Source: Sinosporangium album (lineage in GTDB: Bacteria > Actinomycetota > Actinomycetes > Streptosporangiales > Streptosporangiaceae). From it: a stretch of 64,000 bases of DNA. The notes under the pieces were generated by a model. That model was given only the letters and a program-made list of their open reading frames with translations. It was not told the origin of the DNA and made no database searches. The position numbers and the translations under genes are program-made. Every line of letters starts with the position of its first letter. Within the stretch, counting starts at the first letter, position 1. The stretch covers positions 1 through 64,000 of the forward strand of contig NZ_FNCN01000030.1 in assembly GCF_900100605.1 (NCBI RefSeq), in the 5' to 3' direction. Below, piece by piece: positions 1 through 15,505 of this stretch.

Positions 1-101
1 ACGTTCACGCAGTTCAGAGCTGTACTTCCTCGGTGGTGCCATAGCTCCTCACCCTTCCAGGTTCAGGAGCCTCCAACCAACCCGGGGTGATCCACCTACC
101 T

Positions 102-351
102 GCACCGGCCCTTCGCGGCCGGTGAGCATCGAAACCAGGTCGCCTGCCGGGAGGGTGGGACCCAGCCGCACCAGCACCGGCTCTTTGCGACCGGTGAACA
201 TCGCAACGACTGCGGCAACCAGCTTGCCCGGTGGGCAGAGCAGGCAGCACGGGCCCTTTACGGCGGGTGAGTATCGCAATTCCCGCATCGAGGAGCGAGC
301 CTTGCACACAATCGCTCAGCGTCGGCCCTTCGCGGCCCGACCATTAGGTCG
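102..351 (+). CRISPR. Degenerate CRISPR-like array remnant (3 diverged repeats plus a half repeat)
   Basis: Three related 34-base units lie at 102-135, 174-207 and 247-280. A fourth, whose right half has diverged, starts at 319. Unit starts are 72, 73 and 72 bases apart, so the unrelated spacers are 38, 39 and 38 bases. Units share a CGGCCCTTCGCGGCCGGT-like core that folds as a hairpin in the first copy, and end in ATCGAAAC, ATCGCAAC or ATCGCAAT, the 3' handle typical of many CRISPR repeats. Copies differ from each other at many positions and the last one is broken, which points to a decayed trailer end. No cas gene or clear leader is visible in the window. Confidence 0.6.
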
Positions 352-693
352 AAGGTCTCAGCCGGGGAGAGGGGTGTGTAGTTCGACACGACACCGTAGG
401 GGAACCGTGCTGTAGACACTTATATCGACTCAACTCTGCATGTCATACTGATGAGGGCGCGCTCCTAGGCTGGATAATCTCGACCTTCTGTCTAGGTGAG
501 AGGAATGCGAAGCCGTTGTAAAAGGTAAATGCGGGAACAGGGAGTTGCTGAGCAGGGATTCTTCGTTGCCCAGTCGCGAGACTTCCGCAGTGCGTCGCGG
601 GTCTACCTTCTATCTCTCACAGGCACCTAGTCCATGTGGCTGCTGTGCCGACATCTATTCGAGGTGTTATCGCCGACGGCAAAGATTTTAAGT
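352..693. other. Intergenic stretch without a supportable gene
   Basis: This stretch is more AT-rich than the flanking chromosome. I see no coding frame with actinobacterial third-position bias, no tRNA and no strong hairpin. It carries the leader of the hydrolase gene at 708, whose GAGGAG ribosome binding site lies at about 694-699. The first 101 bases of the window are likewise without a recognisable gene. Confidence 0.4.
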
Positions 694-707
694 GAGGAGA
701 TTTAGGT

Positions 708-1529
708 GTGAGTGCAGAAAGCCAAGAAATTGCCATTTCTACCCTCGATGGACTCTTCCTCTCTGGGGCCTTGGTTGTTCCTTCTGGCTTGCCCAGCGAA
801 ATCGTGGTCCTTGTGCATGGAGGTGGCGTAACCCGTGAGGAGGGCGGGTTCTTTACGCGCATTGCAGAAGCTCTGTGCAGTGCCGGTATCGCCAGTCTGC
901 GCTATGACTTGCGAGGCCATGGTGCTAGTCAAGGACTTATGGAAGAGGCGACACTATCTGCACATCTCAACGACATTCGTGCTGCAATAGAGTACGCCCG
1001 TCGGGAACTCGAGGTGAGCGCACTGCATCTACTCGGGGCAAGTTTCGGTGGTGGTCTGGTGGCGTATTATGCAGCTAAACGTCCTGGTGAACTGGAGCGG
1101 TTGGTGCTCTTGAATCCGCAGTTGGACTACAAGAATCGCTATATCGATCAGAAATCACACTGGCAGAACGATCGGCTGGCAGTGCCGGCGGCTGAGCTAC
1201 TGCGGAGTCAGGGTCATATCCATCACTCCTCGACTGTGAAACATGGTAGAGCAATACTCAATGAGGTCTTCTGGATTCGCCCCTGCGAGGTAATCGAGGA
1301 AATTGAAGCGCCGACGTTGATCGTCCATGGAACAAGAGACACCTTCGTGTCCGTCGATGGATCGCTGGAGGCGGCTAGGCGTCTCAGATCGGAATCGCGG
1401 TTGATAACGATCGACGGCGCCCAGCATGGCTTTGCTATCGACAAAGATCCCGCGTACAGAGATCCTCAGACGCAGGAATGGCAAAAGTTTGTGATCGAGA
1501 ATATTGTTGATTGGATCAATCGGCGCTAG
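708..1529 (+). CDS. Alpha/beta-hydrolase (serine hydrolase, S33-like)
   Basis: A 273-residue cytosolic hydrolase with the alpha/beta-hydrolase fold. Visible motifs in order are HGGG (37-40, oxyanion hole), GASFGG with nucleophile Ser112, HGTRD with acid Asp211, and GAQHGF with His240; the triad is complete. The GTG start is supported by GAGGAG eight bases upstream. Substrate is unknown; related proteins are esterases or peptide/lipid hydrolases. Codon third positions are less GC-rich than in the housekeeping genes, which suggests transfer. Its 3' end overlaps the convergent regulator gene by 14 bases. Confidence 0.85.
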   Translation: MSAESQEIAISTLDGLFLSGALVVPSGLPSEIVVLVHGGGVTREEGGFFTRIAEALCSAGIASLRYDLRGHGASQGLMEEATLSAHLNDIRAAIEYARRELEVSALHLLGASFGGGLVAYYAAKRPGELERLVLLNPQLDYKNRYIDQKSHWQNDRLAVPAAELLRSQGHIHHSSTVKHGRAILNEVFWIRPCEVIEEIEAPTLIVHGTRDTFVSVDGSLEAARRLRSESRLITIDGAQHGFAIDKDPAYRDPQTQEWQKFVIENIVDWINRR

Positions 1530-2973
1530 GTCGCTTGACGTGCAATTTCATCGCTGTGCGCAGGTCGCGGGGGGCGGGTCGCGACTCCCATGGCGCCAGC
1601 GCTTTGACCGCGCGTCGTAGTTCACGCGCAGTGCGCTCGGACTTGATGGCTGTCGCGATGTACAGGGCGGCCACACCTTCTTGGGCAGCATCATCGGGTT
1701 CGCCGCTCAGCGCGAGCGCAACTGCTCGGCGGGCGCGAAAATATGCTTCATCGCGCCAGGAGAGCGTGCCGCTTTCCAATACCTTGTTGAAAAGGTCGGC
1801 GGCCTGATATGGTTTTCCGGCCTCGATAAAGCAGCTCGCCGTGCGAAGCAGGAACGTATTCTCGTCGTAATAAGAGCCGAGTTTGGGTTCCCCGTTATCG
1901 ACGGTGGAGTTGAGTATGCTTCGAGCTTGGTCAAGAGTTCTCTCGATAACGGTGAATGACTCACCGAGCATGGCGTGACCCCGTGCTTCTTGCTGGAGCA
2001 CCTCAACGAGGACTTTCGGTGGAAGCTGCCAAGGTCCGTACCGCGCCGCTTGAGCAAAGGCAAGAGTCCGCACGGCATCTCGTTCCTCGTATGCCATCTG
2101 GGATTTCTTGAGCAGTACATAGCCCTGCATCGGTAGGTTTCCGGCTTCCTGTGCGAACTCGGTAGCCCTGTCCAGCCAGTATTGAGCAGCGTTGGAATCC
2201 TGGAGGTCGCGGTAGAGCCAGGCAGCGAACTCTGCGCCGTCTGCTCCAGCTACAAGCAGCCTTCGCCTTGTCTCCTCTTTCCTGAGGTCTCTGGCATGAG
2301 TTTGGATCACTTCAAGGACCGACAAGGTTGAGGGAAGGGCCTGCACAGCTCCCAGGCGGCCATCCGCAGATTTACAGCGGTCGAGTTGTCGATGGATAAG
2401 CGCAACGGCTGAGCTGTCGAAGTAGCGAGGCTCGCTCACGGCCTCGGCGAGGCGCCGTTGATCGATCTGATCGTTTGTTCCGTTGCGTTCTTCGATTGTT
2501 TCAGTCAGGTGATGTGTCGAGCTTGCATGCATCGAAATTTGGGAACTGGGCCGCTGTGACGGCTGGTTGGAGTCCAGGCTGCGGTGGTCGATCAGGTTGA
2601 TCTCTCCACGGGCTGAATCAGAGTAGAGGCCATACTCTGTGTCGGTTAGGAGCCGTCTCCCAGTCGTCTTGTAGATGCGGGCAAGCATATCCAGCGCAGC
2701 CGCGCTTGGACGGCGCCCACTCTCGGGGCTCGGCCAACGTTCGAACTGATAGATCCTTGATTTGACCATGGTGGGCTCACCCGTGGTGAGGGTATTCCAA
2801 CGATCGGCTACGTCCTGATGGCTCAGCCCGTGGGCTTTGCGAAAAGCGACACGCGGCCCTATGCCTGGCTCATCTACGTGGAAGACGCCGGCGATCTGCT
2901 CCCATGTGAACCCCCTACGCCGAAGCTCGTCCGCACGCTGTGCAGCTTCGCGTCGTTTCATGCTCTTCTGCAT
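1516..2973 (-). CDS. XRE-type helix-turn-helix regulator with TPR-like C-terminal half
   Basis: A 485-residue protein. The N-terminal ~110 residues look like the split helix-turn-helix domain of actinobacterial XRE regulators (segments around RGFTWEQIAGVF and LSHQDVADRWN). The remaining residues are helical and repeat-like (for example LYRDLQDSNAAQYWLDRA, ADLFNKVLESG), as in TPR-bearing regulators of this class. Such proteins often control morphological or secondary-metabolite genes, but no target is evident here. The GC content is modest, like the neighbouring hydrolase. It probably acts in the cytosol as a DNA-binding protein; the ligand, if any, is unknown. Confidence 0.75.
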   Translation of the reverse strand: MQKSMKRREAAQRADELRRRGFTWEQIAGVFHVDEPGIGPRVAFRKAHGLSHQDVADRWNTLTTGEPTMVKSRIYQFERWPSPESGRRPSAAALDMLARIYKTTGRRLLTDTEYGLYSDSARGEINLIDHRSLDSNQPSQRPSSQISMHASSTHHLTETIEERNGTNDQIDQRRLAEAVSEPRYFDSSAVALIHRQLDRCKSADGRLGAVQALPSTLSVLEVIQTHARDLRKEETRRRLLVAGADGAEFAAWLYRDLQDSNAAQYWLDRATEFAQEAGNLPMQGYVLLKKSQMAYEERDAVRTLAFAQAARYGPWQLPPKVLVEVLQQEARGHAMLGESFTVIERTLDQARSILNSTVDNGEPKLGSYYDENTFLLRTASCFIEAGKPYQAADLFNKVLESGTLSWRDEAYFRARRAVALALSGEPDDAAQEGVAALYIATAIKSERTARELRRAVKALAPWESRPAPRDLRTAMKLHVKRPSAD

Positions 2974-3048
2974 CGTTTGCCTTCGCCCGATGTTGGGGTG
3001 GTAGCTGATCGATCCGATCGTAACCCGATATCCGAGTGATCAGGAATG

Positions 3049-3132
3049 GTTAACCAGTTGTCGCTGACATTGTTAACCTCTTCATCCCGTCAGCGGAGTA
3101 TACGCAGGTCAGAGCCGTATAAAGCTGTTAAC
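3049..3132. promoter_or_regulatory. Three GTTAAC motifs between divergent genes
   Basis: GTTAAC occurs at 3049, 3072 and 3127, the first inside the palindrome GGTTAACC. The cluster lies between the XRE regulator (reverse) and the small gene at 3254 (forward), an expected place for a regulator binding site. This is inference only. Confidence 0.3.
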
Positions 3133-3253
3133 TAGTGCGGAAGTCTTTTCGGTGGAACGCCTTCGGCATGCTGGAGACAGGTGGTGCTCTTGAGTGGGAT
3201 GCCGCACTGGGCGCCCTCTGCTGTTAGTTATCTCCCCCGAAAGGAATAGGGCC

Positions 3254-3463
3254 ATGAGGAACGGTGAAGGACCCTCGAAGGAAGCCCAGACGCAGCGGTC
3301 CACACATGAGTGGGTAGGAGAAGATGCTCGTTCTGACCGGGCTGCTCCGCGTCCTCGGTTCATGTGTTGGAGGGTAGAGGTCGCAGCCGATAAGGCTCGG
3401 CGTGCTGAGGAAGGCCGTCGGAGGGATCTGGCGATGTTCCGCCGGATGCGCTCGCAGGGGTAG
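3254..3463 (+). CDS. Small basic hypothetical protein (69 aa)
   Basis: The ATG at 3254 is preceded by AAGGAATAGG, a good ribosome binding site, and the frame runs to 3463. The product is rich in Arg, Glu and Ala (ending DLAMFRRMRSQG) and has no recognisable domain or membrane segment. A near-perfect hairpin follows. It sits first in a rightward run of accessory genes after the XRE regulator. I do not recognise the family; the frame could be spurious, but the start signal and downstream hairpin favour a real gene. Confidence 0.45.
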   Translation: MRNGEGPSKEAQTQRSTHEWVGEDARSDRAAPRPRFMCWRVEVAADKARRAEEGRRRDLAMFRRMRSQG

Positions 3464-3526
3464 CTGTCCAGTTCGATAAGTTGCGCGCTCCTCATGGACG
3501 CAAGTCGCGGCGGCCATATGGACCCA

Positions 3527-3555
3527 GGGGCGGAACCTTGGGAAGGTCCCGCCCC
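3527..3555 (+). terminator. Hairpin after the small gene at 3254
   Basis: Arms 3527-3539 and 3543-3555 pair over 13 positions with one mismatch and a GGG loop. There is no U-tract, as is common in actinomycetes. Confidence 0.5.
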
Positions 3556-3616
3556 CTGCTCGCCTCTGTTTCCTGCTCCGATGCTTGCCGTCGGCCGAGT
3601 GAAAGCGCCCTGAACT

Positions 3617-3943
3617 GTGGAAGTGTCTGCGAGTGACTTGGTCTGGCTGGTTTATGCCGTGGGGACCGCCGTGGCCGGTTGGGTTATGTTCAGGCAGTTG
3701 AAGCGCCTCGCGGATAGGGGCGGGGATTCGGGGTGTGATTGTTGCCAGGAGCGGTCGCATTCGCTGGAGCGAGTGTTCTTGGTGGTGAGCGCGGGTCCTC
3801 CGATGTCGGTGCTGGCGGCTCTGATGTTCCTGGCCGTGGGGGCACTGTGGCCGCTGATCCTGGTCCACCTGCTGTACTGGCGGCTCTTCCAGCCGCGCCG
3901 GGGTGGAGGGTGCGGATGCTGTTTGGAGAAGTTGCTCCACTGA
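3617..3943 (+). CDS. Small membrane protein with two cysteine clusters
   Basis: A 108-residue protein with an N-terminal hydrophobic segment (WLVYAVGTAVAGWVMF) and a second hydrophobic stretch around residues 60-90. CDCC in the middle loop and CGCC near the C-terminus are striking and could bind metal or be acylated. The start is GTG at 3617 or 3623; the ribosome binding site is weak. No family is recognised. It lies between two other accessory genes on the same strand. Confidence 0.5.
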   Translation: MEVSASDLVWLVYAVGTAVAGWVMFRQLKRLADRGGDSGCDCCQERSHSLERVFLVVSAGPPMSVLAALMFLAVGALWPLILVHLLYWRLFQPRRGGGCGCCLEKLLH

Positions 3944-4179
3944 GCGCGGTGGATGCGCCGCTGCTTCTCGCGTGTCAGGGAACGGCGTCAGGCGAGTTCC
4001 GAGAGCGTAGGCGGGCCTTCCCGTTTCCCGGTGTTCGGGGCGCGTAGTCGGCAACGGACGGCTGTTGCCCTCCTTTACCGCTGACGCCCCGCCGCGCAAG
4101 TACAAAGGCCGGGGCCACAAGGTGTCCCGTACGGCTGGCCCTGTCTGTCAGTCCATCGATCGAAAGGAATCGTTGTCCT

Positions 4180-4863
4180 ATGTACATTCCGCGGGTTTCT
4201 GTACCGGACGTGCGGTTGCGTGCTGCTGGGGGCCGCAGTGGGCCGTACCGGACGGGTGACGCGCTGCATGATTTCTGGTCGGGGTGGAGTTGGGATCTGG
4301 CCGGGGCGGTGGCGTCGACCGGGTCTCTGCCGTACGGGGCGGTCCTGGTGGGGGTTGGGGGGCGGCGGAACGCGGTGTTCGCCGCGCTGCTGGCGATGCA
4401 TGGGGACTGCGCGGGGGTCGTTCTGGACTTCGACGGGAGCCGGGACGTGATCGAGCGGCAGTTGGAGCTGGAGGGGGTGGCGCAGCGGTGCGATGTCGTG
4501 TCGGCCGGGGAGCGGCTGGTGGTGCCGGTGGCGCCGTTCTATCTGGTGGCGGAGCTGCCCAAGCGGTTGCCGGAGCCGGACACGGTGGGGATCGTCGGGG
4601 CGGTGGGTGCGGCTGTTCCGCTGGGTGGGCGGTTGGTGGTACTGGATACGGTGCTGGATGAGCTGGGGCCGGGGGAGGAGCACGATTTCGATGGGCAGCC
4701 TCCGCCGCCGGAGGAGCGGTGGTGGATGCCTTCGCGCTATGAGGGGCTGCTGCATCCGCTGGGGTTGCGCACCAGGGCGATGTGGACGTTGGAGAGCGGG
4801 ATTTCGCTGCTGGAGTTCGAGAGGTCGTCGTCGCCGGCTGCCGCGGTCGTGGTCGCGGGTTGA
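4180..4863 (+). CDS. Degenerate O-methyltransferase-like protein
   Basis: A 227-residue protein resembling the catalytic half of SAM-dependent O-methyltransferases. FDGSRDVIERQLELEGVAQR followed by CDVVSAGERLVVP matches the 'DLP-vi ... gl-dR-efv-GDff' region of that family, and GGRLVVLDTVLDE matches the later strand. The usual glycine-rich SAM motif is replaced by GVGGRRNAVF and the N-terminal dimerisation domain is missing, so catalysis is doubtful. GAAAGGA precedes the ATG. It may be a repurposed or decaying methyltransferase. Confidence 0.5.
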   Translation: MYIPRVSVPDVRLRAAGGRSGPYRTGDALHDFWSGWSWDLAGAVASTGSLPYGAVLVGVGGRRNAVFAALLAMHGDCAGVVLDFDGSRDVIERQLELEGVAQRCDVVSAGERLVVPVAPFYLVAELPKRLPEPDTVGIVGAVGAAVPLGGRLVVLDTVLDELGPGEEHDFDGQPPPPEERWWMPSRYEGLLHPLGLRTRAMWTLESGISLLEFERSSSPAAAVVVAG

Positions 4864-5174
4864 ATCAGGGTGCTGTTGTGGTTCTCGTTGTTCGGGTGGC
4901 GGAGCGGAGCGGGCGTGGGTAGCGTTTGCAGTGCCTTGATGTGAGCACGACACATCTGGGTGCGGAGAACCCGGGCGGCACCTCGCCGCTTGCCTGGGTT
5001 TGACCCTCCACTCCGCTTTCTCGCCGCTCGCGCGCATCAATCGGTTGGCCGGCTCACTCCGGCTACCGCTTGCCGAGCCGGGTCGGTTCGCCGCAGCAGC
5101 GGGTGACTTCCCGGGTGCTCGTCGACATACACCTCACCACGCTCGAATAGCGATCACAGCCGATCATGGCAGGC
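4864..5174. other. Intergenic stretch, nothing recognised
   Basis: No frame here shows a start signal together with coding bias. It separates the methyltransferase-like gene from the convergent CU044_5270 gene. Confidence 0.4.
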
Positions 5175-6990: not shown

Positions 6991-7374
6991 GTGCTGGATG
7001 CCGACGGTACTGTTGAACCCGTGTCCACCTCGCATCGCGATGGCGAGGCGCTGATCCCTCGCCCGCCGCTGACAACGGCTGCTTTGCGAGTCGCGGTGGC
7101 TCAGATCGCACCGGCCTATCTAGGCCAGTTCGTTGACCATCTCGATCAGACGACAGAGCAGGCCGCGCGGCAGAGCACCGTGGCGCCCCTACAGGGGTTC
7201 TTGGAGCAATGGGGCGAGTTCGTGGCGATCCACCGCCATCCCGCCAGAGCCGCACGCCTGCGAGAGCTGGAGAAGCAGGTGGCCGCTGTCACCGACCGAG
7301 ACGCGTTGAGGGTGGTCTTGGCCGAGATCAGGGAGCTCACCGCTCTCGCGCGTCGTGAAGCCGCCGGTGAGTGA
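6991..7374 (+). CDS. DUF6247-like small protein, probable antitoxin of a toxin-antitoxin pair
   Basis: A 127-residue protein whose core (AYLGQFVDHLDQTTEQAARQ ... LQGFLEQWGEFVAIHRHPAR) resembles DUF6247 proteins of actinomycetes. Those often precede a RelE/ParE-like toxin, as here. The N-terminus is uncertain: GTG at 6991 or GTG at 7021, neither with a good ribosome binding site. The downstream toxin-like gene overlaps its stop, so the two are coupled. Role as antitoxin is inferred from family and neighbour. Confidence 0.55.
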   Translation: MLDADGTVEPVSTSHRDGEALIPRPPLTTAALRVAVAQIAPAYLGQFVDHLDQTTEQAARQSTVAPLQGFLEQWGEFVAIHRHPARAARLRELEKQVAAVTDRDALRVVLAEIRELTALARREAAGE

Positions 7375-7630
7375 CATCTGGGCCTGGGAGTACGATCCAG
7401 ACGAAAGGCATGTCGTTTCGGGACCCCCGGTCGTGGTCGTCACGGAGGTTGAGCGGCTGGCTGAACAGCTCGTGATTCTTGGAAGGGACGCAGCTAACGC
7501 GGGCCGGGGGCCGCTACACGGGGGAGGGCTGCGAACGCTTGATCTCTTCGGGGGGCGGGGCTTTCTGCACTTCATCGTCGCCGACCATCTGCGCTTGGTG
7601 CTGATCGTTCGCGTCACCTGGCTGGATTGA
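7367..7630 (+). CDS. RelE/ParE-like toxin candidate
   Basis: An 87-residue protein starting at GTG 7367, inside the end of the preceding gene (GTGAGTGA). WAWEYDPDERHV at the start, GGGLRTLDLFGGRG in the middle and LVLIVRVTWLD at the end match small RelE-fold proteins of actinomycetes. Such toxins cleave mRNA at the ribosome or act on gyrase. I cannot assign catalytic residues with certainty. The overlap with the DUF6247-like gene suggests a type II module. Confidence 0.5.
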   Translation: MSDIWAWEYDPDERHVVSGPPVVVVTEVERLAEQLVILGRDAANAGRGPLHGGGLRTLDLFGGRGFLHFIVADHLRLVLIVRVTWLD

Positions 7631-7763
7631 GGCAACCTGGACGTCGGTTGAGTCGGAGTTGTGCGTGCAGGATCTCCCGCTTGGCCGCTGCCGCGCAGGC
7701 GCGGGTATTCGCTGAGTACGTCGGTCAGGACGGCGGGTTGCGGAGTAGCCAAGAGACACACTG

Positions 7764-8298
7764 GTGGTTCGACGTCGGCGACGGCAACACCTGGTGGCGC
7801 TGTCCAGCCCGCACTGGTGGGAACGGCTGCCTCAGATGCGGCCTTTTCGCACAGTGCCGGCTAGCCACCCGGAGTTGAGCAGCAGAGTCGACACGTTGAT
7901 CGGGTTCGACTTTTCGGCTTCAAGGCGGGACTTGCAGCAAGTCCTGATCGTGGACTTGCTGATGCCGCTGGTGGAGGCAACCCGTAGCTGCGTCTTCGAC
8001 CGTACTGTCTTTGATGAGGCATACGAGCGGATGGAAACGGGTCTCCTCGCGGAGAATGTTTGATAGATGCAAGGTAGTGCCACTATCCGGCTTCGACATG
8101 GCGCTGCACCCTCAGGTCGACCTGGAGAACGGCTTGGTCATTCGGCTTATGACCGACGCCGAACTGTCAGCGGCTGCGCAGGTCGGTCTGCCGGATCAGG
8201 AGACCTTGGGGACGCTGAGCCGTTCGGTGTCGCGGATGCATCAGTGTGCTGTGGTCAAGGTGACCACTTCCGAGGGCGTTCCCAGAGGTCTGACCTGA
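7764..8298 (+). pseudogene. Frameshifted remnant of an unidentified gene
   Basis: Two overlapping frames each look partly coding. One (7764-8063) includes LIVDLLMPLVEATRSCVFDR. The other (8011-8298) continues with VDLENGLVIRLMTDAELSAA and ends at 8298. Together they read like one longer protein broken by a frameshift around 8020-8080. The family is not recognised with confidence. It lies between the toxin-like gene and tRNA-Lys, in a region that looks like a remnant mobile or accessory insert. Confidence 0.35.
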
Positions 8299-9222: not shown

Positions 9223-9235
9223 GCTCTTCCACCGA

Positions 9236-10393
9236 TCAGCGGTAGGCGGCGAGCCCGGTGAGGGCCTCGCCGAGGACAAGGGTGTGGATTTCCTGGGTGC
9301 CCTCGTAGGTGAGGACTGATTCCAGGTTGTTCATGTGGCGGATGACGGGGTATTCGAGGGTGATTCCGTTGCCGCCGAGGATGCTGCGGGCTTGGCGGGC
9401 GATGTCGAGTGCGGCCCGGACGTTGGCGAGTTTGCCGAAGCTGATCTGCCGCGGCGTGATCGTGCCGGCGTCTTTGAGCTGGCCGAGGTGGAGGGCGGTG
9501 AGGTGGGACTGGCCGAGGCCGACGGCCATCCAGGCGAGCTTCTCCTGGGTAAGCTGGAACGCTCCGATCGGTTTGCCAAACTGCGTGCGCGAGGTGGAAT
9601 AGTCGACCGCCGACTCCAGGCATGCCCGGGCGGCGCCGACGACGCCCCACAGGATGCCGAAACGGGCCTCGGAAAGGCAGGACAGCGGGCCCTTGAGGCC
9701 TTTCACGCCGGGAAGTACGGCGGAAGCCGGCAGTCTGACGTCGTCGAAATAGAGCGAGGACGTGACGGAGGCCCTCAGCGACATTTTGCGGTGGATCTCC
9801 GGCGCGGTGAAGCCGGGCGTGTCAGTCGGCACGACGAAGCCGCGGACGCCCTCGTCGGTCTGGGCCCATACGACGGCGACGTCGGCGATGGAGCCGTTGG
9901 TGATCCACATTTTCGAGCCGTTGAGGATCCAGTCGCCTGAGGGGTCGCGTTTGGCGTGGGTCCGCATGCCTCCGGGGTCGGAGCCGTGGTCGGGTTCGGT
10001 GAGGCCGAAGCAGCCGATGGCGTCGCCGGCGGCCATGCGGGGGAGCCATTCCTCTTTCTGCTCGTCGGTTCCGTACTTCCAAATGGGGAACATGGCGAGC
10101 GATCCCTGCACGGAGACGAAGGAGCGCAGGCCGGAGTCGCCGGCTTCGAGCTCGCGGCAGGCCACGCCGTATGAGACGGCGTCGAGCCCGGCGCAGCCGT
10201 ACCCTTCGAGGTGCATGCCGAGGACGCCGAGTTCGCCGAGGGCCGGGGCGAGCTCTTTGACGGGGAATGTCGCTTCTTCAAACCAGTCGGCCACGTCGGG
10301 GAGGATGCGGTCGGCAACGAACTCTTTGACGGTGTCGCGGATCAGGCGCTGCTCGTCAGACAGCTGGTCGTCGATACGTAGCAGGTCGTCCAT
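9236..10393 (-). CDS. gcdH: Glutaryl-CoA dehydrogenase-like acyl-CoA dehydrogenase
   Basis: An FAD enzyme of 385 residues that oxidises an acyl-CoA; it is closest in sequence feel to glutaryl-CoA dehydrogenase (lysine/tryptophan breakdown). Typical segments are GDSGLRSFVSVQGSLAMFPI, the FAD/substrate loop CFGLTEPDHGSDPGGM, KMWITNGSIADV, and the C-terminal ARSILGGNGITLEY ... YEGTQEIHTLVLG. The catalytic Glu is expected in YEGT. ATG 10393 is chosen because GAGGAGAGG precedes it. A strong terminator follows. The gene appears monocistronic and is divergent from the PspC gene. Confidence 0.85.
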   Translation of the reverse strand: MDDLLRIDDQLSDEQRLIRDTVKEFVADRILPDVADWFEEATFPVKELAPALGELGVLGMHLEGYGCAGLDAVSYGVACRELEAGDSGLRSFVSVQGSLAMFPIWKYGTDEQKEEWLPRMAAGDAIGCFGLTEPDHGSDPGGMRTHAKRDPSGDWILNGSKMWITNGSIADVAVVWAQTDEGVRGFVVPTDTPGFTAPEIHRKMSLRASVTSSLYFDDVRLPASAVLPGVKGLKGPLSCLSEARFGILWGVVGAARACLESAVDYSTSRTQFGKPIGAFQLTQEKLAWMAVGLGQSHLTALHLGQLKDAGTITPRQISFGKLANVRAALDIARQARSILGGNGITLEYPVIRHMNNLESVLTYEGTQEIHTLVLGEALTGLAAYR

Positions 10394-10559
10394 GGGGGTG
10401 TTTCCTCTCCTCCAGCCGCCATTGGCCTCTGTCAGGGTATTCCTGGTCGAATGGCGGGGTGCCCCCAGGGTTGGGCCAGGGGAAATCCCGATGTACTCAT
10501 GAGTCCTATGACGGCAATCTGGCCATATGAGCGACATCAACCTTCAAGGTGGCCATGGT

Positions 10560-11030
10560 GTGAAGAAGCTGAGCCGTAGCCAGGATGGACGCATCATCGC
10601 GGGCGTGTGCTCGGGTATCGGCAGGTTCCTCGGTGTCGATGCGAACATCGTGCGTTTCGCGATGGCGGCGGCGACCCTCTTCGGAGGCCTCGGCGTGGGC
10701 GCCTACGTCGTCGGCTGGCTGCTCCTACCCGACGAGACCCAGCGCGCCTCGATCCTCCAGGACCTGGTCGACAGGCACAAGAACGGCGCCGCACCCTGGC
10801 AGCAGAACAAGGCCGGCGATTCCCCCGCCTGGGGGACGGAACCCCCGCGCTATGACAGCGCAGACCAGTTCCGGCCTACCGGCGCTTACGGCGACGTGCG
10901 TACCGACTCCATGTCCACCCCGGGAGCGTACGGCGCGGCGCAGCCGTCCCGGACGCCCCAGCAGCCCCAGGTGCCCGCACAGGGGCCGGACGCCGGGGCT
11001 GCCGACTCCTCGAACCCCCGCGCCTTCTGA
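10560..11030 (+). CDS. PspC-domain membrane protein
   Basis: The N-terminal ~60 residues form a PspC domain: KKLSRSQDGRIIAGVCSGIG, then FLGVDANIVRFAMAAATLFG and GAYVVGWLLLPDE, with one or two membrane helices. The remaining ~90 residues are Pro/Ala/Gln-rich and probably disordered. Start GTG 10560 has AGGTGG seven bases upstream and fits the family start; an ATG at 10527 in the same frame is the alternative. PspC proteins sense envelope stress in other bacteria; the role here is inferred. Confidence 0.85.
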   Translation: MKKLSRSQDGRIIAGVCSGIGRFLGVDANIVRFAMAAATLFGGLGVGAYVVGWLLLPDETQRASILQDLVDRHKNGAAPWQQNKAGDSPAWGTEPPRYDSADQFRPTGAYGDVRTDSMSTPGAYGAAQPSRTPQQPQVPAQGPDAGAADSSNPRAF

Positions 11031-11111
11031 GAGGCGGAGCCGGGCCCCGAAGGGCCGACGACCGCCTGAGGGGAGGCGGGGGTAGGACACGACAGGACAG
11101 AGCGGGGCGGG

Positions 11112-12410
11112 TTAGGACGAGGTGGACGCCTCCGCCCGGACCTTGGCGATGATCCCGTCGCGGGACTCGGTCCACAGGAGCGCGAGCAGCGTCGCCGACA
11201 GCAGGCCGGCGATGCCGGCCAGGGCCACCACGGCCTCGGGTCCGAGCTTCTGCGCGGCCGCGCCGCCGATCAGGATGCCGACGCCCTGGACCGCGAGCAG
11301 GCCGGAATGGACGAGGCCGAACGCCTGGCCCCGCCGTTCCGGGGGGACGCACTGCACGAAAGCGGCATTGGCGGCGAGCTGGTAGGCGCCCCCGATGCCG
11401 GACAGGATCCAGAGGAAGAGCACGATGACCAGCGGTGGCCGTACGGCGCACGCGATCAAAGGGGCGCACGTGAGCATGGCCATCCACCCCATCGCACGTA
11501 AACGTCCCGACGGCGAGACGAACCGCGCGAACAAGAACGCACCGATCACCGTGCCGGTGGGCATCGCGGCCATGAGCAGACCAGTGATCACCGCCACGGG
11601 AAGGCCGCTGCCGGTCAAGGTGGCGGCGTACGGCGCGGCGATGCCCTCCGGGAGCACGTAAAAGCCGCACAGCCACGCGAACATCACCAGCGTGCGCAAC
11701 CGCCTGTCGCCGAAGACCAGCCGCGCGCCCGCCCGAGCCGTCGCCCACATGCCGGGGCTCTTGCCGGGAGGCGCCGGCGTGGCGCGGCGCCGTACGCCGG
11801 CGACGATGATCAGTGCGGAGGCGATGAACGTGGCGGAGTCCAGTGCCAGCGCGCGGTACGGCCCGAGGCCCGCGATGACCGCGCCCCCTACGGCGAAGCC
11901 CAGCATCTGGACGGCCTGGTTGGTCATGTTCTGGAGGGCGGAGCCCGCGACATAGCGGTCACCACTCAAGATCTCCGGCAGCAGCGCGGCCCGCGCGGCC
12001 GAGAAGGGCGCGCTGAGCAGCACCACGCAGAAGACCAGGACGCACAGTGCCCAGAAGGGCACCCCCGGGATGGCCATGACCGCCACGAGCAGGGCCCGGA
12101 TCACGTCGCAGACGAGCATGACCCGGCGCCTCGGGTAGCGGTCGGCGAGCCCCGCGAGCAGGGGCCCGCCCATGATCGGCGGAAGGTAGGTCAGGGCATA
12201 GACCGCCGCGGTGGCCAGGGGGGACTGGGTGCGGCCGTAGACGAGCACGGCCAAGGCGACCTGCGCGAGCTGGTCGCCGAGTAGGGACAGGCACTGGCCG
12301 AACCAGAGGGCTCGGAACTCACCGTTGGCGATGACTTCGCTATAGGTGGCTTGACTCTCGGGCAGACGGCGGTGCCTCCCGGGAAGTCTGCCGGGCTTTG
12401 TGGCCGCCAT
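11112..12410 (-). CDS. MFS exporter
   Basis: A 432-residue major facilitator protein with about 12 hydrophobic segments. The loop between helices 2 and 3 reads LADRYPRRRVMLVCDVIRAL, typical of the MFS_3 (enterobactin-exporter-like) branch, with a symmetrical break near the middle. The ATG at 12410 is preceded by GCGGAG. Substrate cannot be inferred; drugs or siderophores are usual for the branch. It stands alone, convergent with the PspC gene. Confidence 0.85.
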   Translation of the reverse strand: MAATKPGRLPGRHRRLPESQATYSEVIANGEFRALWFGQCLSLLGDQLAQVALAVLVYGRTQSPLATAAVYALTYLPPIMGGPLLAGLADRYPRRRVMLVCDVIRALLVAVMAIPGVPFWALCVLVFCVVLLSAPFSAARAALLPEILSGDRYVAGSALQNMTNQAVQMLGFAVGGAVIAGLGPYRALALDSATFIASALIIVAGVRRRATPAPPGKSPGMWATARAGARLVFGDRRLRTLVMFAWLCGFYVLPEGIAAPYAATLTGSGLPVAVITGLLMAAMPTGTVIGAFLFARFVSPSGRLRAMGWMAMLTCAPLIACAVRPPLVIVLFLWILSGIGGAYQLAANAAFVQCVPPERRGQAFGLVHSGLLAVQGVGILIGGAAAQKLGPEAVVALAGIAGLLSATLLALLWTESRDGIIAKVRAEASTSS

Positions 12411-12783
12411 AGGACTCCGCTGACCTTGCAGGCGAACCTGACTAAGAGTGTTCGGTATGTAACCTACGGTGCCCGCTGGCGGCTCACCGCGCAACCCGAT
12501 GCCGCCAAGCTCCTGCAAACTGTGATCGCTGATCATGATACGTCGGGAAAAGTGGGGCATCACAGCGCCAAAAGAGGTTACTCCATGTTTAGCGGGAAAT
12601 TCTCATAGTGACCGAAGTGGACGTAGAGACTAAAAGTTGATCACCGTGGCGTGGGATGAAAAGTCGGTCGCCGAGCGCTGTGTGATCAGTGACGGGGACC
12701 TCGCCGGGCAGGGCCTCGGCGAGACGGACACCCGCTCACAGGACGGGTTCTGTGTCCGGGAAGCGGACGTAGGGGGGCGCAGA

Positions 12784-13140
12784 ATGAGGACTGTGGACAT
12801 GACGCGCATGGAGTTCGAAGCCCTGGTGAGCGAGGCTCTCGACCTCATCCCCCCAGAGCTCGCGCGTGCCATGGACAACGTCGCGGTGTTCGTGGAGGAC
12901 GAGCCGCCGTCGGGCGACCCGCACCTCCTCGGGCTCTACGAGGGCGTGGCACTCACCGAGCGCGGCGACACGTACGCCGGATTCCTCCCCGACCGGATCA
13001 CGATCTACATGGGCCCGACGCTGCGTATCTGCGAGACCCGCGAGGACGTCGTCGAGGAAGTGGCCATAACCGTCGTCCATGAAATCGGCCACCATTTCGG
13101 CATCTCAGATGAGCGGCTGCACGAGCTGGGCTGGGGCTGA
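12784..13140 (+). CDS. Zincin-like metallopeptidase family protein
   Basis: A short actinobacterial metallopeptidase-family protein of 118 residues. EVAITVVHEIGHHFGISDER contains the zinc site HEIGHHFGI (HExxH plus a third ligand). IPPELARAMDNVAVFVEDEP at the start and RITIYMGPTLRIC in the middle are conserved in this family. GGGGGG precedes the ATG at 12784; the ATG at 12799, with GAGGA upstream, is equally possible. The physiological substrate is unknown. Confidence 0.85.
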   Translation: MRTVDMTRMEFEALVSEALDLIPPELARAMDNVAVFVEDEPPSGDPHLLGLYEGVALTERGDTYAGFLPDRITIYMGPTLRICETREDVVEEVAITVVHEIGHHFGISDERLHELGWG

Positions 13141-13498
13141 CTGTTCCCGCGTGCGGCGCTCACGGCCCGCCCCGCACCGTCCTGGGGCGTTCAGGAATTT
13201 CCTACCGCCAAATCTCCCCGTTGACCAGGCGAAATACCGGCTTACCCAGCGCTGTTAGGAAAAACTCGGTCTACCACCTCACTGCGTCTCCTTCATGAGT
13301 GGGTAGTGACTCCGTCAAAGAACGGCGCGAGAGGAACTCGGGAGTCATTCTGGCCGTGCATGAGTTGGGAGCGAGCCCGCCCATCCTCCGGCCCTGGGCC
13401 GGTGGGCCGCGTCGCGCGCCACGTGTGCGGCCTGGTGGGCCACGGCTCGCACTCTCGGTCCGCGACCTGGATGGAAGCCGCTCACTCGGGGGACATAC
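13141..13498. other. Intergenic leader region of the metallophosphoesterase gene
   Basis: No coding frame is convincing. TTGACC at about 13220 could be a -35 box, but no good -10 box is evident. The last bases carry GGGGGAC, the ribosome binding site of the next gene. Confidence 0.3.
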
Positions 13499-15118
13499 AT
13501 GGACTTCACGCACCTGAGATCCCTGGTCCGCTCCGGGGCCACCGGCACGGCGGCCCTTCTGCGGCGTGCGGGCGGGACGGTTGTCGTGAAAACCCTGCTG
13601 ATCGTCGTTGTCGCCCTGGCGGGGGCCTGGCTCGCCCTGTCGGTGGGGGCGAGCGTGCGCACCCCCGTGGGGCCGGCCGAGATCGGCATGAGCCTCCAGC
13701 CCGCCACGCGGGGGGAGACCGTCGTCGACGTCCATCCCCTCGGCAAACTGCTCTTCGACACCCACGACGCGCCCGTACGGCTGCGCATCACCCTGGAGAA
13801 CATCGACCAGGACCAGGCCAAGTCCATGATCGAAGATCCGCGGCTCGCGGATCGGCTGCCCGGCATCATCGAGGAGAACCTCGGGGTGGGTTTGCGGGCT
13901 CTTGCCCTACAGGCCGCGCTCTGGTCGCTGGCCGGTGCCGTACTGGCGGCCTTGGTGGTCTTCCGCCGTCTCTGGGCGGTGCTGACCGGCTTCGTGGCCA
14001 CGCTTGTGGCCATCGCGGCCATTGGGGTGGGGGTGTTTGTAACGTTCCGACCGGAATCGGTGGTTGAGCCCCGCTACACGGGCCTCATCGCGGGAGCGCC
14101 CTCCCTCGTCGGCAGCGCGGAGTCGATCGTCACCCGCTTCGAGTCCTACCGCCTGCAACTCGCCAAACTCGTGACGAACGTCTCCAAGCTGTACGACACG
14201 GTCTCGGCGCTTCCCGTCTATGACGCGGACCCGGCGACCATCCGCGTCCTCCACATCTCCGACATCCACCTCAACCCCATCGCCTGGAGCCTCGTCCGCT
14301 CCATCACCGGCCAGTTCAAGATCGACGTGATCGTCGACACCGGCGACCTCACCGACCACGGCACCCGGGCCGAGGACAAGTTCGTCGAGGAGATCGGAAA
14401 GCTGGACGTTCCGTACGTCTTCGTGCGCGGCAACCACGACTCCAAGGCCACCGAACGCGCGGTCGCCAAGCAGAAGAACGCGATCGTGCTCGACGGCAAG
14501 AGCGCCGTCGTCGGCGGGCTCAAGATCTACGGCCTGGGCGATCCGAGGTTCACGCCCGACAAGTCCGTCGTCGTCGACACCCGCCTGGAATGGCTGCACG
14601 AGCTCGGCCGCACCCATGCCGTACGGTCGGCCGCCGACAAAGCCGACCTCGTCGCCGTGCACGACCCCACCGTCGGCAGGGGTTTCTCCGGGACCGTCCC
14701 CATGGTCCTCGCCGGCCACGCCCACAGGCGCAGCACCGAGGTCCTGCCCACCGGCACCCGCGTCCTCGTCCAAGGCTCGACCGGCGGTGCCGGCCTGCGC
14801 GCCCTCGAACACGAGGAGCCCACCCCCGTCCAGGCGTCCGTCCTGTACTTCAACCAGGAGACCCGCAGGCTTCAGGCCTGGGACGACATCACCCTCGGGG
14901 GCCTCGGCGAGCAGTGGGTTCAGATCCAAAGGCACGTGGAGAGCCAACCTGCGCGTACAATTTCCCAGGAGCCAACGCAGAGCCCGTCTCCAGCGGGAAA
15001 GGCGTCTGGCGCCGCGACGCCTCCGAAGGGCAAACCGCTTTGGCATCAAGGGCAAACGTCCCCTATGCTTCAGAGGTCTCCAACGGAAGACGTCACGGAA
15101 CAGGAATCACTCTCCTGA
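13499..15118 (+). CDS. Membrane-anchored metallophosphoesterase
   Basis: A 539-residue protein. An N-terminal helix (VVVKTLLIVVVALAGAWLAL) and two more helices around residues 140-185 place it in the membrane. The calcineurin-like phosphoesterase domain follows: DIHLN (D-x-H), GDLTDHG, RGNHDS and GHAHRRS, all five metal-binding blocks intact. The last ~55 residues are a low-complexity Gln/Pro/Ser tail, which also contains the promoter of the tRNA operon, and tRNA-Glu starts at the base after the stop codon. Substrate unknown. Confidence 0.85.
   Translation: MDFTHLRSLVRSGATGTAALLRRAGGTVVVKTLLIVVVALAGAWLALSVGASVRTPVGPAEIGMSLQPATRGETVVDVHPLGKLLFDTHDAPVRLRITLENIDQDQAKSMIEDPRLADRLPGIIEENLGVGLRALALQAALWSLAGAVLAALVVFRRLWAVLTGFVATLVAIAAIGVGVFVTFRPESVVEPRYTGLIAGAPSLVGSAESIVTRFESYRLQLAKLVTNVSKLYDTVSALPVYDADPATIRVLHISDIHLNPIAWSLVRSITGQFKIDVIVDTGDLTDHGTRAEDKFVEEIGKLDVPYVFVRGNHDSKATERAVAKQKNAIVLDGKSAVVGGLKIYGLGDPRFTPDKSVVVDTRLEWLHELGRTHAVRSAADKADLVAVHDPTVGRGFSGTVPMVLAGHAHRRSTEVLPTGTRVLVQGSTGGAGLRALEHEEPTPVQASVLYFNQETRRLQAWDDITLGGLGEQWVQIQRHVESQPARTISQEPTQSPSPAGKASGAATPPKGKPLWHQGQTSPMLQRSPTEDVTEQESLS
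15040..15069 (+). promoter_or_regulatory. Promoter of the tRNA Glu-Asp-Phe operon, inside the upstream coding region
   Basis: TTGGCA (15040-15045) and TATGCT (15064-15069), 18 bases apart, fit a sigma-70-type promoter 50 bases before tRNA-Glu. Both boxes lie in the 3' end of the metallophosphoesterase gene. Confidence 0.6.
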
Positions 15119-15191
15119 GCCCCCATCGTCTAGCGGCCTAGGACACCGCCCTTTCAAGGCGGCGGCACGGGTTCGAATCCCGTTGGGGGCA
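15119..15191 (+). tRNA. tRNA-Glu (TTC)
   Basis: Acceptor GCCCCCA pairs with TGGGGGC. The anticodon loop CTTTCAA gives TTC and the T-arm is ACGGGTTCGAATCCCGT. The first base follows the preceding stop codon directly. CCA is not encoded. Confidence 0.95.
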
Positions 15192-15314
15192 CCGGTGAGC
15201 AACAGCTCGCCAGAACGAAGGAAGGTCAAAAGGACCTCCGGAAGACTGGTAAGCTAAGCAAGCCGAAACAAACGGCCGAAAGGCCGGGGCAAACGATCGG
15301 AAGATCTAAAGCAA

Positions 15315-15389
15315 GGTCCTGTAGAGCAGTTTGGAGTGCTCGCCACCCTGTCAAGGTGGAGGTCGCGGGTTCAAGTCCCGTCAGGACCG
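15315..15389 (+). tRNA. tRNA-Asp (GTC)
   Basis: Acceptor GGTCCTG pairs with CAGGACC. The anticodon loop CTGTCAA gives GTC and the T-arm is GCGGGTTCAAGTCCCGT. It is the second tRNA of the operon. Confidence 0.95.
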
Positions 15390-15409
15390 CTCACGGCGAA
15401 AGCCGACAA

Positions 15410-15486
15410 GGTCAGGTAGCTCAGTCGGTACGAGCGTCCGCCTGAAAAGCGGAAGGTCGGCGGTTCGACCCCGCCCCTGACCACCA
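15410..15486 (+). tRNA. tRNA-Phe (GAA)
   Basis: Acceptor GGTCAGG pairs with CCTGACC. The anticodon loop CTGAAAA gives GAA, and CCA is encoded at 15484-15486. It is the last tRNA of the operon. Confidence 0.95.
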
Positions 15487-15505
15487 TCATCTGATGCGCA
15501 ACGCT

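Follow-up and report, generated by a model that had tools for sequence, protein, structure and literature searches.

Features at the Contig Edge

The window considered here, meaning the whole stretch of DNA that was analysed, comprises the first 64,000 bases of contig C43 (71,673 bases), from a genome of 7.06 Mb in 97 contigs. A short CRISPR array lies close to its left end, next to part of a putative insertion sequence. The features are as follows.

1 to 94, minus strand: IS3-like insertion sequence (putative), left end and first codons of orfA (ATG at 42-40); the contig ends inside the element
95 to 98, no strand: CCTA, 4 bases between the end of the insertion sequence and repeat 1
99 to 135, plus strand: repeat 1, exact 37-base consensus of the type I-C arrays of the genome, 37/37 to the units on contigs C52 and C87
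136 to 170, plus strand: spacer 1, 35 bases, no target found
171 to 207, plus strand: repeat 2, worn, 31/37, with the sister/ancestral alleles at positions 3 and 34
208 to 243, plus strand: spacer 2, 36 bases, no target found
244 to 280, plus strand: repeat 3, worn, 28/37, with the sister/ancestral alleles at positions 3 and 34
281 to 315, plus strand: spacer 3, 35 bases, no target found
316 to 337 (end approximate), plus strand: repeat 4, truncated, 18/22 of the 5' bases matching, 3' part lost

The units start at 99, 171, 244 and 316. These steps of 72, 73 and 72 bases agree with the period of 72-73 given in the first-pass annotation, which had divided each unit into a 34-base repeat and a spacer of 38-39 bases; the repeat is in fact 37 bases long and the spacers 35, 36 and 35. 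The ATCGMAAY 3' handle that it had pointed out is present in units 1-3 as ATCGAAAC, ATCGCAAC and ATCGCAAT. Its description of the copies as strongly diverged holds for copies 2-4, which match the 37-base repeat of the genome at 31, 28 and 20 positions, and not for copy 1, which is the exact consensus (37/37). The last repeat is broken, as had been noticed, with only the 5' 22 bases of unit 4 resembling the repeat.

Elsewhere in the window (64 kb outside 61-360, both strands) the best repeat score is 23, and scores of at least 20 occur at 0.1% of 127,328 positions. Units 1-3 are far above this chance level, and a chance origin for them was rejected on the score distribution. Unit 4 rests on its score and on its place in the series. 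Positions 99-135 match the Rfam family CRISPR-DR29 along their whole length at 21 bits, where the gathering score is 39. The three spacers are even in length, unique and without mutual similarity; their longest match in the other loci examined is at most 14 bases. An open frame (2-415, 137 aa) spans the units, as it might if they were a coding or other non-CRISPR tandem repeat, but the spacers share nothing, the repeat is exactly identical to arrays beside cas genes, and the steps are unequal, so that the step of 73 breaks the reading frame. The coding repeat was rejected on this spacing and identity, and the probability left to any non-CRISPR reading is negligible.

The Insertion Sequence

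The end of the element in the window recurs over 94-95 bases at 99-100% identity in three other places in the genome: C10:228-322, C78:1-94 and C14:1009-1102. The flanks of the copies differ directly beyond window base 94, giving a common boundary at four places including the window. On C10 the copy runs into an 89-codon piece of orfA that matches Pfam HTH_Tnp_1 (PF01527, E 6.9e-13), apparently the N-terminal part of an IS3-type orfA. With an orfA of the HTH_Tnp_1 kind beside a fixed element end, positions 1-94 would belong to the IS3 family; the name IS3-like rests on this orfA and on end features that we take to be of IS3 type.

Contigs C78 and C43 begin at the identical base of the element. 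Contig C43 presumably breaks there because multi-copy elements break assemblies. The array seems isolated because the IS3-like element stops 4 bases short of repeat 1 and the contig ends within it. The four bases CCTA (95-98) either close a spacer that the insertion interrupted or belong to a target duplication. What lies upstream of repeat 1 is the end of the element and not a leader. Leaders are present on C52 and C87, and the missing leader concerns the fragment in the window, not its parent array.

Cas Genes and Sister Arrays in the Same Genome

A search of the genome with window positions 90-420 gave 13 matches, found only on C43, C52 and C87 (40 of 47 candidates scored, E up to 0.001). 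An exact pattern covering 33 bases of the 37-base repeat was absent from the genome contig collection, which may not include this genome. On contig C87 (10,735 bases) an array lies at the high end and is followed on the same strand by cas3, cas5c, cas8c/csd1, cas7/csd2, cas4, cas1c and cas2. Most of these proteins exceed their NCBIfam cut-offs (given in parentheses): Csd1 at 235.8 bits (218.65), Cas5c at 153.1 (85), Csd2 at 310.7 (182.25), Cas1c at 419.8 (385), Cas2 at 56.8 (24.5) and Cas4 at 85.2 (65). For Cas3 the HD domain scores 61.9 bits (43.45) and the helicase core 88.5, the latter below the curated cut-off of 102.45, as it also was in a second search. Judged by these family matches, C87 carries a complete type I-C operon, beside an array whose repeat is identical to that of window unit 1. 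On C87, 10 full units have the unit 1 repeat (9 exact, 1 with a single change), and the last two units on the contig are worn.

On contig C52 a leader is followed by an array that runs off the contig end; the repeats of its six full units are all exact copies of window unit 1. Both C52 and C87 end in or near arrays. The leader on C52, with a cas2-like tail upstream (about 1214-1730), is near-identical to C87:1-552, where a leader likewise follows the cas2 tail, and would be a duplicated cas2-leader block that starts a second array. The other cas1 matches of the genome are on C6 and C59; together with cas3 matches they mark two further CRISPR-Cas loci (C6:19157-22176 and C59:101192-109167).

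The first-pass annotation had called the array one without cas genes. This is correct for contig C43, where no cas1 or cas3 match was found, and does not extend to the genome, where cas genes with the same repeat family are present as the type I-C operon on C87. Related repeats are likewise found both in this genome and in a sister genome, and with the coding repeat rejected neither of the two objections named in the first-pass annotation applies.

The Congener and Other Genomes

Sixty genomes, this one included, were searched for the repeat, and four gave matches, among them a congener (31 matches) and the genomes G002 and G020 (one match each). The congener, the only one among the matched genomes, is taken to be Sinosporangium siamense NBRC 109515 (NZ_BOOW01000049.1). 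Its type I-C locus uses the same 37-base repeat family, with steps of 71-75 bases in most units, and its cas proteins are 73-89% identical to those of C87 in the seven main frames. On its contig C49 (L017) a leader and about 49 units are followed by the cas operon, a second leader and 5 units. Arrays flanking cas8c on both sides are also found in G124, G012, G150 and G068. In the congener, as in the window, the last unit is worn. The congener differs in that its arrays are contiguous with the cas operon, and in that each of them ends in one worn unit (with a further fragment after the second array), whereas the window has three.

The first array of the congener locus (array A; C49, 5022-8501) changes repeat variant in blocks. 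Its units at 7047-7989 have the variant of the second array (array B), with another variant on either side, which looks like exchange between the two arrays.

Two small arrays of the congener also belong to this repeat family and show graded wear. One, of 5 units with a worn run of 4, is on its contig C44 (L018, 1-1900), at the contig end and near an array of a different repeat (GTTGCACCCGTCCCTGGTGG...). The other is a mini-array of 6-7 units, depending on the cut-off, on its contig C35 (about 108620-109092; L037/L019), in which a stem base pair has, by eye, gone from C-G in the consensus to T-A, with both sides changed.

Neither of these small arrays is on the contig of the I-C operon, and a search for cas1 in the congener gave matches on its C49, C52 and C62 only. 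They could be a model for the window: the array would then be a solitary mini-array without cas genes at a chromosomal site of its own, remnant of an old locus or moved there, decaying in place, with the insertion sequence incidental. Such an origin would change only the link between the window units and the cas-linked array. A comparison of window positions 360-4889 with the congener gave nothing at E 0.001 (40 of 305 candidates scored), while positions 9232-15487 map to a congener contig (also numbered C43) that has no repeat match. Both observations suit a separate site. Against this, repeat 1 is perfect and has the derived alleles of the strain, as fits a recently active array, and the repeat search of the genome revealed no other worn end for the array that starts after cas2. 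A solitary array is therefore considered unlikely, at roughly one chance in five.

Shared neighbours failed to link the window to the congener locus. The genes beside the window array have no proteins in common with the 20-kb CRISPR stretch of the congener. A match of the window at about 6.2-6.7 kb to congener C49, about 19 kb from its array, was rejected as a link, since the same segment matches five other congener contigs as well (66-78%) and is read as a common domain.

Wear Along the Array

A CRISPR array grows at its leader, where every new unit comes with a duplicate of the adjacent repeat, and its last units are the oldest. Among 18 arrays compared (2 from this genome, 4 from the congener and 12 from other genera), the terminal repeat has 4 or more mismatches in 15. 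By this cut-off the run of worn units at the end is 0 in 3 arrays, 1 in 9, 2 in 3, 3 in 2 and 4 in 1, which places the three worn units of the window at the high end of the range, but not alone there. A looser cut-off lengthens some runs by one unit. For C87 only the last two units were counted, an N preceding them; the first unit was used as consensus for the congener's C44, and the G130 consensus was in part a guess (best score 35). The count left out G152, a mosaic of worn units, as well as G149, G146 and the second G066 array, which runs off its stretch. The mosaic in G152 (contig C8, L058, about 10298-13200) is long, lies beside cas8c, has scores of 21-37 of 37 and is more worn than the other arrays of the repeat family that were examined.

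The folding of the copies changes along the window array. Repeat 1 forms an 8-bp hairpin (-17.1 kcal/mol). The hairpin of repeat 2 is weaker (-11.1 kcal/mol), with six outer and two inner pairs kept, and in repeat 3 (-8.6 kcal/mol) the consensus hairpin is gone and the fold is no better than those of shuffled sequences. A fall in hairpin energy over copies 1-3 is what loss of constraint predicts. Copy 4 folds at -14.5 kcal/mol through a different pairing; its energy does not continue the fall and counts against a decay series. Decay that preserves the hairpin was rejected on the folding of the copies. The base changes are also informative: 8 of the 11 changes in copies 2 and 3 from the form of the congener are G/C-to-A/T transitions, as expected with relaxed selection, and in the congener's C44 array the figure is 16 of 28.

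Degenerate guides are used by CreTA and by systems in which cas genes are autorepressed, and worn units might in principle be regulatory guides of this kind instead of debris. The hairpin pairs kept in copy 2 would suit such a role, as would degenerate units 5' of cas3 on C87, the first of which folds well (-15.6). However, the consensus hairpin is gone from copy 3, copy 4 is without the 3' handle, no leader is present on the window side of the insertion sequence, and positions 136-315 have no strong match in their own genome, the best other match (E 0.09) lying over repeat 2 and spacer 2. A regulatory role is thus very improbable.

No protospacer was found for spacers 1-3 in the phage, plasmid, IMG/VR and own-genome searches, so the comparison with phage and plasmid databases proposed in the first-pass annotation gave no target. 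Positions 99-352 matched nothing among 50,697 phage records. Among 72,556 plasmid records there were weak matches in 54, several of them over the repeats; the best E was 0.8 in the best 20 of the 54. The first 20 bases of each spacer had no match in IMG/VR, searched for exact matches only.

The gathering of mutations at the leader-distal end of arrays is described in the CRISPRDetect account (PMC4869251), where mutations and truncation concentrate in the last repeats, as they do in the window. Compared with that description nothing here is different in kind; what the window adds is a row of three worn units and a switch in the repeat allele. The available part of PMC4004331 does not treat repeat wear.

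Repeat Alleles at Positions 3 and 34

The alleles of copy 1 are T3 and A34, as in the other arrays of the strain. Copies 2 and 3 have A3 and C34, the alleles of S. siamense, and copy 4, its 3' part absent, has A at position 3. Fifteen stretches from other genera were read for these alleles, and the repeat 3' end could be seen in 14 arrays in 10 of them. Four stretches gave no array, and two rows, the second of G130 and that of G152, were incomplete. All 14 resolved arrays, from 10 genomes, end in ATCGCAAC, and C34 is therefore taken as ancestral. A3 is probably ancestral too, resting on the congener and on G149 and G152, whose repeats start CCAGCACC.

Either the worn units predate the allele change, or recombination brought them in from an array in which it never took place. 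The number of mismatches jumps from 0 to 6 between neighbouring copies 1 and 2, and this would fit either older age or an origin by recombination. On balance the worn end would be a dated record of allele replacement in the repeat (A to T at position 3, C to A at position 34), with the same type I-C machinery throughout and units from before the change surviving.

Origin of the Window Array

The feature is an ordinary one: a type I-C array seen at its trailer end, with an insertion sequence as its boundary. Very probably it is the worn end of an array whose cas genes are in the same genome. The repeat identity with cas-linked arrays and the worn copies 2-4 bear out the earlier description of a decayed array and a fossil trailer end. 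The units would be the oldest part, farthest from the leader, of a type I-C array in this Sinosporangium-like genome (Streptosporangiaceae). To judge from the wear, the oldest units have drifted by mutation without purifying selection, and they would retain repeat alleles older than the change in the repeat of this lineage. The putative IS3-like element ends 4 bases short of the last intact repeat and separates them from the sequence to the left.

It is also probable, at a lower level of confidence, that the array beginning behind cas2, at the low end of C87, ends in these units, and that the units give little or no working guide RNA. A worn end for the array before cas3 is already present on C87, and the window end is therefore assigned by parsimony to the array after cas2; with two leaders and two worn ends, the link is one of parsimony and not proof. 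The leaders of C52 and C87 are nearly the same, down to the cas2 tail, so either array could be the one that ends in the window. The far junction of the insertion sequence was not found: in the stretches examined around the 13 repeat matches, the end of the element adjoins a repeat only in the window.

A similar event is described for IS6110 in the CRISPR locus of Mycobacterium tuberculosis (PMC7708916), where an insertion sequence in or beside an array splits it, as in the window. Both the insertion sequence and the CRISPR locus are different in that case, and the window is known from one junction.

An array that lacks cas genes in one window is corrected here to the trailing piece of a system with its operon on another contig. 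The insertion sequence shows how an old array end can be severed from its leader. The retained older alleles are a small, usable example of CRISPR repeat change along a lineage, and if the worn end is indeed a dated record, repeat evolution could be time-ordered along one array.
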